Source: Bacteroidales bacterium
GTDB taxonomy: Bacteria > Bacteroidota > Bacteroidia > Bacteroidales > UBA932
Reading direction: 5' to 3'
Length of the DNA stretch: 64,000 bases
NCBI GenBank assembly: GCA_016288775.1
Contig: JAEELG010000013.1
Span: 1 to 64,000 of the forward strand
Shown here: positions 3,299 to 8,793 of the stretch, in pieces
How positions within the stretch are numbered: the first letter of the stretch is position 1
How the letters are laid out: every line of letters starts with the position of its first letter
Position numbers and translations under genes: made by a program
Notes under the pieces: model-generated
What the model was told of the DNA's origin: nothing
Databases searched by the model: none
Seen by the model: only the letters and a program-made list of their open reading frames with translations

Positions 3299-3328
3299 TA
3301 AGGCCGTCCCCCGGATGGCCTTTTTTTG
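3299..3328 (+). terminator. rho-independent terminator after tonB
   Basis: AGGCCGTCCCCCGGATGGCCTTTTTTT stem-loop plus T-run. Confidence 0.75.
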
Positions 3329-3345
3329 GTAGATATTTAAGAAGA

Positions 3346-3449
3346 AGATGCTCTCTCAAAACCGTCTGCGCCCACGCAGCGTGAGTGGGAGGGGCCCATC
3401 GAAGATGGGAGGGATAGGACCGAAGGTCCGTAGTTTTGAGAGAGTATCT
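3346..3449 (+). repeat. multi-hairpin palindromic element / candidate structured leader of hflX
   Basis: 17-nt arms AGATGCTCTCTCAAAAC (3346-3362) and GTTTTGAGAGAGTATCT (3433-3449) pair with one G-U; they enclose CACG-cag-CGTG, CCCATC-gaa-GATGGG and GGACC-gaa-GGTCC hairpins. Confidence 0.75.
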
Positions 3450-3460
3450 TTTCTTTCTTT

Positions 3461-4642
3461 ATGAATATGAGCGAAGAAAGAGCAGTATTCGTAGGAATAA
3501 TCCGACAGGGCGAAGACGAACGCAAGGTCAAGGAATACCTCGACGAATTGGAATTCCTTGCCGATACCGCCGGCGTGCTCGGCGACAAAAAGTTCATCCA
3601 GAAGCTTGACAAGCCGGAGAAGGCTACATACATACGCAGCGGCAAACTCGCCGAAATCGCGGCTTATTGCGAAGATAATGGAATCACTTACGTCATCTTC
3701 GACGACGAACTCACCGCGATGCAGCAGCGCAACGTTGAAAAGGTCATCAAAAGCGCGGCAGTTATCGACCGCACAAGCCTGATCCTCGAAATTTTCTCGC
3801 AGCGCGCAAAAACATCATACGCCAAGATGCAGGTGGAGCTGGCGCGATACAACTACATGCTACCGCGCCTCGCCGGCATGTGGACGCACCTGGAGCGCCA
3901 GAGGGGCGGCATCGGCACCCGAGGCGGCATGGGCGAAAGCCAGATCGAGGTGGACCGCCGTATCGTGAGGGAGCGCATCGCCCGCCTCAAAGAGCAACTG
4001 AAGAAGGTCGATAAGCAGATGGCCACCCAGCGCAGCAACCGTGGCCAGTTGGTGCGCCTGTCGCTGGTAGGATATACCAACGTGGGCAAGAGCACGCTAA
4101 TGAACCTGCTGAGCAAATCCAGCGTGTTCGCGGAGAACAAGCTGTTCGCGACCCTGGACACCACCGTCCGCAAGGTCGTGATCGAGAACTGCCCATTCTT
4201 GCTGAGCGACACGGTGGGCTTCATCAGGAAGCTGCCCACCCAGCTCATCGAGGCCTTCAAGAGTACCCTCGACGAGGTGCGCGAGGCCGACGTGCTGGTG
4301 CACGTTGTGGATGTGTCGGCTCCCGACTTCGAGGAGCAGATGTACGTTGTCCAGAAGACGCTTGACGATATCGGCGCCGGCGACAAGCCGCAATACATAA
4401 TCTTCAACAAGATAGACAATTACGAGTACGAACCCTACGACGAGTTCTCACTCACGCCCAAGGGAAAGGACAACCGCTCCCTCGACGACATAAGGCACGA
4501 ATGGATAGACGAAAAGAAAGTGCCGTGCATTTTCATGTCGGCCCTCAGCAAGGAAGGCCTGCCGAAGCTTCGCTCGGACATTTACAAGATGGTCGCAGAA
4601 ATCCACGCCGGCCGCTGGCCGTTCAACAATTTCCTCTGGTAG
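3461..4642 (+). CDS. hflX: GTPase HflX
   Basis: RGGIGTRGGMGESQIEVDRR, GYTNVGKSTLMN, DTVGFIRKLP motifs. Confidence 0.95.
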   Translation: MNMSEERAVFVGIIRQGEDERKVKEYLDELEFLADTAGVLGDKKFIQKLDKPEKATYIRSGKLAEIAAYCEDNGITYVIFDDELTAMQQRNVEKVIKSAAVIDRTSLILEIFSQRAKTSYAKMQVELARYNYMLPRLAGMWTHLERQRGGIGTRGGMGESQIEVDRRIVRERIARLKEQLKKVDKQMATQRSNRGQLVRLSLVGYTNVGKSTLMNLLSKSSVFAENKLFATLDTTVRKVVIENCPFLLSDTVGFIRKLPTQLIEAFKSTLDEVREADVLVHVVDVSAPDFEEQMYVVQKTLDDIGAGDKPQYIIFNKIDNYEYEPYDEFSLTPKGKDNRSLDDIRHEWIDEKKVPCIFMSALSKEGLPKLRSDIYKMVAEIHAGRWPFNNFLW

Positions 4643-4672: not shown

Positions 4673-6309
4673 CTATTTCTTGCCGACGGCGCTACTATCC
4701 TGGAAGAGTTGATTCAGCCAGGTATGCAACTTGAGGCCTTCTACCGGGCTTCCTATTTTCTTGCGTATGTTGCCGTTAATGTGCAGAATGCTGCCCGTAT
4801 GAAGAAAGTCATTCATTTCTTTGCTTGAGTATCCGGCGACATACAATGCGCACAGCCCAACCTCCTCGGCACTTAACCCATAGCCAACAAGCTTCTCTGT
4901 AAACACCGGATAAGATAAAGCATAGATCATTCCTACGGATTTCAACAACTCTTTGCGGGCTTCATTTATATGTTCTATGTCCTTTCTGGGACTAAACAGA
5001 GACGGATAGTACTTATCGTTATACAGATACGGCCTCAACGCATTCATCCGCACACTTAACTTTTCCCGCAGGCTATTGGTTTCTGCTCCGCCGCCTTCAA
5101 CCAGAGTTTTTATGAAACCGTACTCCGCCCGGGCATCGGAAACTGCGGCCTTGTATTTCTGCTCCCGCTTCAGGAACAATACAACAAGAGTAACAAGACC
5201 CAACAGCAAGAGAGCGATTGCTATGGACAACCAGATCCGTTTTCGCAGATTCTTTTCTGCCTGAATAGCATTTTGGTAGCGCTCTTCAAGGAAACGAATG
5301 TCATTGTTGAAAACGGAGAGGTTGATGGTTTCAATAATGTTCTGATATGTTCGTTCTGCCTTCAACGCTTGCTCATAATCTCCTTTTGTCTGCTTTAGAC
5401 ATGAGAGATGAAAATAATAGTCTGCCTTGGCAAAGTCATCATTATCAGCCGGGAGCCCGCACAAAGCGAAAGCCCTTTCTGCCTCTTCTAACAACCCGGC
5501 TCTATATAAAGCCTTGGAAACCAATAAATAATTAATTGGAGTTCTGGTAGAATCGCACTTGCTCTGATACTCTTGACATTTCTTTAATAGCGATTCTTTT
5601 GTTTCCGCAGTATCTGTCAGGGCAGCACGAAAACGTGATTCATAATAATCAAAAGGTAATTGCAAATTTCTTGCAGACAACCATTGTTCTAGCTCTATTA
5701 ACTCTTGGTTGGCCTTTTGTTTTTCTCCTTTTCTTCTATAGAGCGATGCTAAATCTAAGGCGTTTCTTATATAAAAACCAGGATTTGCAAGATATGGCGA
5801 AACTGCTTTTGATTTAATGATTTCGTCCAAGGCTTTATCAAGAGCGAATTGATAGTAGTAAATCCTTGCCTTACTATTATATAATCTTGATTTGTACTCA
5901 TTCGGCACCGTTTTATCCATAAGCTTTTCTGCCTCTAGATACAAATCTATCGCCTCCTTATACTTACTTGCATTCTCAAATACTCGACCTTGATAATACA
6001 ATGTAAGAAAACGATGATAGTTGTCACCGTGAGAAGAATAATAATTAACCGCTGGAGCAATCAAAGAATCTGAAGCGATGTCTATATAATTCTTATCCAG
6101 TGCCATTGAGTATAGCAGTGAAAATACAAGGCCTTGTCCTTGATTCTTCGAAAAGAAGAAATATCAATTTGCTGCAAGCTGACCAATGCGCTATCGGGCC
6201 GCTCCTGAATGAAACCCTCAATATCTATAAGATTACTATTGACGCCAACATTTCTGCAACCAATGATCAGAAATAAAACTATGGCAAGACTACCGCTGTT
6301 TGCTTTCAT
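4673..6309 (-). pseudogene. TPR-TM-HTH (LuxR-like C-terminus) regulator, frameshifted (ORFs 6082-6309 and 4673-6106)
   Basis: Both ORFs align in order with the intact paralog at 27549-29156. One missing T in the TTTT run (plus-strand AAAA 6121-6124) would restore LYFSLLYSMALDKNYID. Confidence 0.75.
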
Positions 6310-6921: not shown

Positions 6922-8793
6922 ATGAAAAAGTATTTTATATTCTTTTGTATTCTGCTCATCACTTGTATTTCTTGCAATAATGAGATAGAACCAACTACAT
7001 TCAATAAAGACGGAGAGCCTATTACCATGGATCAGGCAAAATACCTGATGAAGGATATATTGTCGACTGTTGATTTTGCTTTTATGTACAATTCACCAAT
7101 CCCGGCAAAAACTTCGTTTATTATGTATGATTATAAGGAGAAAACGAACGTGGAAACAACATCCCCGGAATATGACGCCTGGATGTTTATAGAAAACCCG
7201 TTCTACTTTTCCGACATGATTCCCACATATTATAATTGCTATTATGTCAATACCCTTTCCGGTCAAATCGAGTTGGTCAAACTTAAATCTCCTCCTCAAG
7301 AGGGTTCCGGGGAATTGTTTTCTATGACCAATTTTGTTTTATTGGTTGATGCCGGCAGCTCTCCGGACACAAAAACAGGAGAGAGAGAAGAATTATTGAG
7401 AGGTTTCAATCCTACGCCCGTAGTCACCCATAGCGGACATACTTATGCCGTGATTATTGACGGCGGTATTAATCAGAATTATAACCATATGAGATACTGG
7501 AACATGTGCCAGTTTTTGTATAGAACGCTCAAATTAAAGTATGGGCTTGACGATGATGATATCTATACACTTGTTTGTGGCGGACCATCAACTACATGGT
7601 ATTTCAGTAATGGTTTTTCCAGTTCGAGTTACCTTGATTTTGACCTTGATGGTTATGATGACATTGATTATTCGGCAACATCCACAAATATTGATACTGT
7701 TTTTGATGATATTTCAGATATAGCTATGGCGGGAGACAACCTGCTGGTTTTTGTCACGGACCATGGTGGCTTAGATAACAATACAAGCAGCATTTGTCTA
7801 TGGGGTAGTGAAGAATACTATCCAGAAGATTTAAGCGATCAAATACTGAAGATTAATTCCGGGGTAAGAATCCATGTTGTATTAGGTCAGTGCCATAGTG
7901 GAGGTTTCATTCCTGATTTAATGCTTAGCAACGTGTCTGTAACCACCTCTTGCCTTAAGAACGAAGCAGCATACGTTTATTATTACGATTCAGCCTATAG
8001 TGAATTCCTATATCATTGGATTTGTGCAATGGCTCAAATGGAGCCCTCTGGACAAGTTGTTTCCGGCGTTGATATTAACGGGGATGGTTTTATTTCATAT
8101 TATGAAGCTTATCGGTATGCTTATAACAATGATTATTATCGTTTAAACCATCCCGGAGGAAATATTGAAACCCCGCAATACCAGTGCTTAACAACGTATT
8201 TTGGTGCCAATTATGATTTAGTGGGAAATTATTCTTATGTTCCAAGACTTCGGGATGCCGGGTCTCAGGTGGACGTCAGCTATTCACATACAAAAACCTT
8301 ATATGTGGATGATTGTCCTCCTGGAGTGATCGCAGACTTCTATCCATCAGGAAATCTGGAAATAATAGCCGGAGGAAACAATTACGCAACTATCCGTTAT
8401 ACCGGCTCCCAACCTTATGAAAACAGTTCCTCAAATTATGTATATGTATCATTTCGAAATTCTAATACATCTTTACAGCCTTCGAGTGTTGATTGTATCT
8501 GCTGGAAAGGAGGTTATTACAATCAATCGTCGTTGATTTCTTTATCTTTCGGGGGGAATCCCTCTCTGTTTACTCTTCCGCAGTATTATAACAACATTGG
8601 TGTCAACTATGTCTGGAGCAGCAGTGTTTCCTCATGGTTTCCTCTTGTTCAAGATTATTACGCTTATTTCAATACCGATGACATACTGCCCCTTATTGGC
8701 GACACGGTAAGCGTATCGTTTAACAATCCATTGGGAGAATCCACGGTTATATCTCAAACATTGGAAAATATGGGATACGATATCGATTATTAA
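6922..8793 (+). CDS. secreted/lipoprotein caspase-fold (C13/legumain-like, clan CD) cysteine peptidase
   Basis: Lipobox ITCISC; H-G-G (VFVTDHGG) and Q-C-H-S-G (VVLGQCHSGGF) dyad. Confidence 0.75.
   Translation: MKKYFIFFCILLITCISCNNEIEPTTFNKDGEPITMDQAKYLMKDILSTVDFAFMYNSPIPAKTSFIMYDYKEKTNVETTSPEYDAWMFIENPFYFSDMIPTYYNCYYVNTLSGQIELVKLKSPPQEGSGELFSMTNFVLLVDAGSSPDTKTGEREELLRGFNPTPVVTHSGHTYAVIIDGGINQNYNHMRYWNMCQFLYRTLKLKYGLDDDDIYTLVCGGPSTTWYFSNGFSSSSYLDFDLDGYDDIDYSATSTNIDTVFDDISDIAMAGDNLLVFVTDHGGLDNNTSSICLWGSEEYYPEDLSDQILKINSGVRIHVVLGQCHSGGFIPDLMLSNVSVTTSCLKNEAAYVYYYDSAYSEFLYHWICAMAQMEPSGQVVSGVDINGDGFISYYEAYRYAYNNDYYRLNHPGGNIETPQYQCLTTYFGANYDLVGNYSYVPRLRDAGSQVDVSYSHTKTLYVDDCPPGVIADFYPSGNLEIIAGGNNYATIRYTGSQPYENSSSNYVYVSFRNSNTSLQPSSVDCICWKGGYYNQSSLISLSFGGNPSLFTLPQYYNNIGVNYVWSSSVSSWFPLVQDYYAYFNTDDILPLIGDTVSVSFNNPLGESTVISQTLENMGYDIDY

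Follow-up and report, generated by a model that had tools for sequence, protein, structure and literature searches.

A dispersed palindromic repeat with a covarying pseudoknotted core and copy-specific stems upstream of hflX in a Bacteroidales bacterium

The palindrome at positions 3346 to 3449, upstream of hflX in the window (the whole stretch of DNA that was analysed, 64 kb in length), is one copy of a repeat dispersed through the genomes of its genus. The element is of a familiar broad kind, the short interspersed palindromic mobile repeat, and has two unusual traits: its conserved part is a covarying pseudoknot, and the self-complementary stem that encloses this core differs in sequence from copy to copy. 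The reading that we consider probable is that of a mobile structured repeat, RNA or single-stranded DNA, that is specific to the genus as far as tested and has a stem that template switching rewrites.

The original prediction described a 17-bp stem, AGATGCTCTCTCAAAAC (3346 to 3362) paired with GTTTTGAGAGAGTATCT (3433 to 3449), closing a 70-nt interior; both were found as claimed, the stem comprising 16 Watson-Crick pairs and one G.T pair, and the imperfect palindrome continues outward to about 24 bp. In agreement with the same description, the element starts directly after the tonB terminator and its 3' end lies 11 nt upstream of the hflX ATG (3461). The RNA fold of 3339 to 3456 had an energy of -55.5 kcal/mol (z = -5.1), which was matched by no shuffle. 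The arms had been called single copy in the window, and the 64 kb indeed contain no second core, nor any further inverted repeat with 15 or more near-exact base pairs. Elsewhere in the window, a caspase/legumain-like motif (VLGQCHSGGF) occurs in the predicted lipoprotein encoded at 6922 to 8793. The features of the element and its neighbors are as follows.

3303 to 3328, forward strand: tonB terminator, AAGGCCGTCC ccc GGATGGCC and a T-run, kept in relatives and outside the element
3339 to 3362, forward strand: 5' arm of P1, the copy-specific outer stem, about 24 nt with mismatches, within which 3346 to 3362 are the 17 nt first described
3363 to 3381, forward strand: P2 hairpin of the pseudoknot, CG.CTGC / GCAG.CG with loop GCCCAC (covariation, 96 distinct halves)
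3370, forward strand: G, proposed tertiary contact with G3383 (G/G or A/A covariation)
3371 to 3375, forward strand: CCCAC, 5' side of the pseudoknot helix (covariation)
3383, forward strand: G of GTGA, covariation partner of 3370 (G/G or A/A)
3385 to 3389, forward strand: GTGGG, 3' side of the pseudoknot helix and partner of 3371 to 3375 (covariation)
3387 to 3397, forward strand: near-invariant GGGAGGGGCCC (invariant or nearly so among 53 aligned cores)
3395 to 3409, forward strand: P3 hairpin CCCATC gaa GATGGG, tip variable (core alignment)
3407 to 3413, forward strand: conserved GGGAGGG (almost invariant in 53 aligned cores)
3417 to 3429, forward strand: P4 hairpin GGACC gaa GGTCC, of variable length and missing from some copies
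3433 to 3456, forward strand: 3' arm of P1 (palindrome and RNA fold)
3461 to 4642, forward strand: hflX, the adjoining gene

A blastn search of the element against its own genome returned at least six further copies. With a covariance model built from 53 cores and strict filters, so that counts are lower bounds, we detected at least 11 core copies in the same genome, up to at least 48 per genome in the genus (G027), and the core in 33 of 37 genomes of the genus, the other 4 being without a detected copy. Under the same model and filters the core was absent from all 24 genomes searched from other families of the order. In a pattern scan that covered 84,980 species, the matches listed came almost exclusively from metagenome-assembled genomes of gut and rumen Bacteroidales. 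No Rfam family matched the element, even at E <= 1. A phage or plasmid origin was rejected after collections of both yielded no match; pattern matches in IMG/VR were without arms and seem to be coincidental. The family belongs with the short interspersed palindromic mobile repeats on two counts: its many copies are scattered over unrelated contexts, and orthologous sites may have or lack one (some absences may be deletions). The suggestion of a dispersed palindromic or MITE-like repeat was therefore right in kind, with many copies per genome across the genus, and incomplete in the term "MITE-like," as the arms differ between copies. Two loci, L109 (3370 to 3450) and L154 (5733), carry other palindromic repeats, with GGGACGGTTC / GAACCGTCCC, that are unrelated to this family.

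Of the three hairpins originally drawn in the interior, CCCATCgaaGATGGG and GGACCgaaGGTCC were borne out, whereas CACGcagCGTG is not the evolutionarily conserved pairing; in its place the covarying structure is CTGC/GCAG crossed by the pseudoknot CCCAC x GTGGG. The inner pairs of P2 are Watson-Crick in approximately 91 to 93% of 96 distinct copies, with up to four to five pair types and sets that include GGCC/GGCC, AGCC/GGCT, TGCC/GGCA, CTGC/GCAG, AGAC/GTCT, and GTCC/GGAC. For the crossing helix, CCCNY x RNGGG, 92.7% of the 96 copies form both variable pairs, compared with a mean of 29% and a maximum of 43% after shuffling. Both crossing helices thus covary strongly. The base preceding CCC and the third base of GTRA are G/G or A/A in 53 of 53 aligned cores, and in a wider set that includes a few chance matches the same covariation held in 92.7%, versus 54.6% when shuffled; all of these shuffles ignore the relatedness of copies. 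These alignments show that the core of about 70 nt folds as a single strand, with an H-type pseudoknot at its 5' side and one or two hairpins after it. Crossing covariation of this type is not expected of double-stranded DNA, so a folded single strand must matter.

Variants of the core occur at several loci. In L020, L025, L043, L070, L072, and L193, P4 is a long, near-perfect, copy-specific stem with the constant apex GTCC[AG]GTGGAC, a second variable palindrome within the element. A structured insert of about 57 nt (GCCCCCTTTGGGCAAATGTCCCTTGGGGGAC..AGGGGGA) lies 3' of P2 in L037, L075, L269, and L281, and L065 has a G-rich motif related to it. In L109, L129, L132, L167, and L192, P3 is longer by about 60 nt of conserved sequence, and the arms are more conserved (GGGGTATnGGTATC).

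The arms average 24 bp and are perfect in 50 of 157 copies, with P1 stems mostly 14 to 31 bp long and 45 bp at most. Among pairs of copies with core identities of at least 97%, the identity between arms falls from about 0.9 beside the core to near background past about 10 bp, and complementarity within each copy stays at about 0.9 to 0.95 along most of the arm. Loci L050, L051, and L052 have cores that are 100% identical and arms that are unrelated. These comparisons show an inner portion of about 10 bp that travels with the core and an outer part particular to each copy. A self-pairing stem with a different sequence in each copy is unusual among bacterial mobile repeats.

Several sources for such arms were considered and rejected. 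Spacer-like copying from other genomic DNA is contradicted by the 11 copies of genome G023 (97% complete), the arms of which match only themselves. The arms are also not copied flanking target sequence: element-free counterparts of three sites hold neither arm (L054 versus L249, L052 versus L245, and L048 versus L246), and the long P4 stems inside the element are likewise copy specific (L043, L072, and L193), which means that flanking DNA alone does not account for the variability. Insertion into ordinary, preexisting long hairpins was rejected because core-free long palindromes are rare: of 116 long palindromes in 1.2 Mb, 100 include the core motif, and several of the other 16 are other families or P4 stems.

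Orthologous sites reveal how individual copies have changed. Among the nearest 30 hflX loci, the tonB-hflX spacer contains anything at all only in the five closest genomes, more distant relatives having a short spacer only. A long palindrome is present in all five, and its core is forward in G000 and G071, inverted in G023, and missing in G072 and G129; with coreless palindromes at this site in the last two, replacement within resident palindromes is possible. On the 3' side of hflX, the element is forward in G071 and G129 and inverted in G072, and G023 has a short spacer. In the window itself, GCCGACGGCGCTACTATCCTGG at 4673 to 4710, just 3' of hflX, resembles one arm of the G071 and G072 element there, without core or second arm. 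The gene whose 3' end it occupies is on the reverse strand and differs from the usual neighbor; a copy may have mediated a rearrangement here.

Between G023 and G071, orthologous copies ranged from fully conserved arms (L051/L275) through arms partly rewritten yet still paired (L048/L279 and L019/L277) to flipped cores (L047/L278 and L050/L280). Many of the paired arm changes at orthologous sites are of the transversion type, which is not expected under slow compensation via G.U pairs. Joint arm changes and inverted cores are what template switching between inverted repeats predicts. Some of the "empty" sites may be deletion products and not virgin sites; at the L054 site, where a target site duplication amounts at most to a diverged GATT repeat and the arm ends are fuzzy, the G071 sequence could have arisen by deletion between GATT repeats.

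Mismatches in the stems are polar with respect to strand. Read on the core strand, the arms of 157 copies contain 88 G.T/T.G mismatches and 36 A.C/C.A mismatches (p = 3e-6, somewhat optimistic since orthologous copies are not fully independent), a departure from the equal numbers predicted by neutral, strand-symmetric mutation. The ratio of G.T to A.C is alike for flanking genes in sense (25:12) and antisense (28:11) orientation, and this independence of gene direction points to core-strand folding in the element's own life cycle, not in host transcripts. Any preference for a replication strand was limited to a slight GC-skew bias that was not significant in longer loci.

The polarity bears directly on the strongest rival, an amplified RNA element serving the host, for example a 3'-end stabilizer or terminator kept folded in transcripts by selection. 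In favor of such a role, 86 copies face the 3' end of a gene and 40 the 5' end, about a twofold difference, at a median distance of 11 nt from the stop codon; the fold is under covariation; and several species have the same spacers occupied. We nevertheless regard it as unlikely, given that both orientations are common, that the core-strand mismatch bias ignores gene direction, that four genomes of the genus are without a copy and element-free orthologous spacers exist, and that some copies are in frame within ygiQ, as seen in three species. By an ORF-length gene call alone, 52 of 120 copies would lie inside ORFs, which is probably an overestimate. At L125 and L169 a copy stands beside an apparent IS1182-type transposase gene, which may be chance.

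An ordinary MITE, derived by deletion from a DDE transposon and with the arms serving as terminal inverted repeats, would account for a length of about 100 to 130 nt, inverted ends, high copy number, and insertion of the entire unit where the sites of relatives are empty. The terminal inverted repeats of a MITE are common to its copies, whereas here arm identity between copies is near background past the innermost 10 bp or so, the conserved part is the center, covarying as a single-strand pseudoknot, and no autonomous, ORF-bearing long form was present among the collected loci; we think this reading improbable. Less probable again is mobilization as a REP/REPIN-like palindrome by a RAYT (Y1 transposase) or as a retroelement by reverse transcriptase, even though single-strand structure with strand polarity and many, frequently intergenic copies would suit either. 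Neither PF01797 (RAYT-type Y1 transposase) nor PF00078 (reverse transcriptase) had a match in G016 (98% complete, 37 copies), G004 (36 copies), or the element's own genome (11 copies), and association with either enzyme was rejected on their absence from high-copy genomes; moreover, stem sequence, which REP elements have in common, is not shared among the copies here. A structured leader RNA or riboswitch controlling hflX, which the original prediction had offered on the strength of a stable fold 11 nt from the ATG, is very improbable, as conservation in a fixed orientation upstream of hflX was not found (the core being inverted or missing there in three of the five closest genomes and the place empty in more distant relatives) and the remaining copies of the same core adjoin many unrelated genes in both orientations.

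We return, then, to a mobile structured repeat with a stem rewritten by template switching. The folded core strand, as RNA or single-stranded DNA, would be the form recognized and moved by a putative factor acting in trans. Replicative template switching between the two arms would keep the long stem perfect and occasionally flip the core, and mismatches that break core-strand pairing would be selected against. The copy in the tonB-hflX spacer would have entered in the ancestor of the five-genome clade, probably with no specific role for hflX. Counting against this reading are the absence of a moving protein from our searches, the lack of an autonomous long form among the collected loci, and the fully conserved arms of the orthologous pair L051/L275; template switching alone explains neither the unrelated outer arms on the identical cores of L050, L051, and L052 nor the excess of G.T among stem mismatches.

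Recognition of bacterial palindromic repeats usually rests on shared ends, and the Correia/NEMIS, RUP, ERIC/IRU, YPAL, and Rickettsia families are, as far as is known, recognized via conserved repeat ends or a whole conserved sequence. By comparison with these families, the present element has ends unique to each copy and a covarying pseudoknot as its conserved center. It is otherwise like these small mobile palindromes, which are reviewed in PMC2229807, in being about 100 to 150 nt long, dispersed, palindromic, intergenic with some coding copies, and without a protein of its own. The in-frame copies in ygiQ resemble the Rickettsia palindromic elements. The bcr1-type repeats of the Bacillus cereus group, which belongs to a different phylum, are likewise dispersed and are said to have a conserved RNA-like fold; they are not known to have copy-specific stems.

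REP/REPIN elements with their RAYT (PMC3116915) have hairpin repeats, strand polarity, and lineage-specific expansion in common with the element, but here high-copy genomes have no Y1 transposase, the 70-nt core is pseudoknotted and not a simple hairpin, and the stem is unconserved. Template switching between inverted repeats homogenizes arms and inverts the spacer (PMC8604942), and it can create and maintain hairpins (PMC8794818). The element resembles those hairpins in that both arms change together at several bases and the spacer is inverted at orthologous sites. The published cases (PMC8794818, PMC8604942) concern mutation within hairpins already in place and do not involve a mobile family, whereas switching here would operate at dozens of copies in each genome and across spacers of about 70 nt.

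We suggest tentatively that the family may represent a new class of mobile structured nucleic acid, in which an RNA-like pseudoknotted core spreads without RAYT or reverse transcriptase and each copy acquires, in the course of its insertion or afterward, a new and perfectly complementary stem instead of inheriting one. The absence of these two enzymes points to a mover of another kind, and the core-strand mismatch bias points to a step in the life cycle that uses the folded single strand. If template switching makes or keeps the stems perfect, the family would offer hundreds of naturally replicated cases in which to measure the origin and evolution of long perfect stems, a question that matters for structured RNA.
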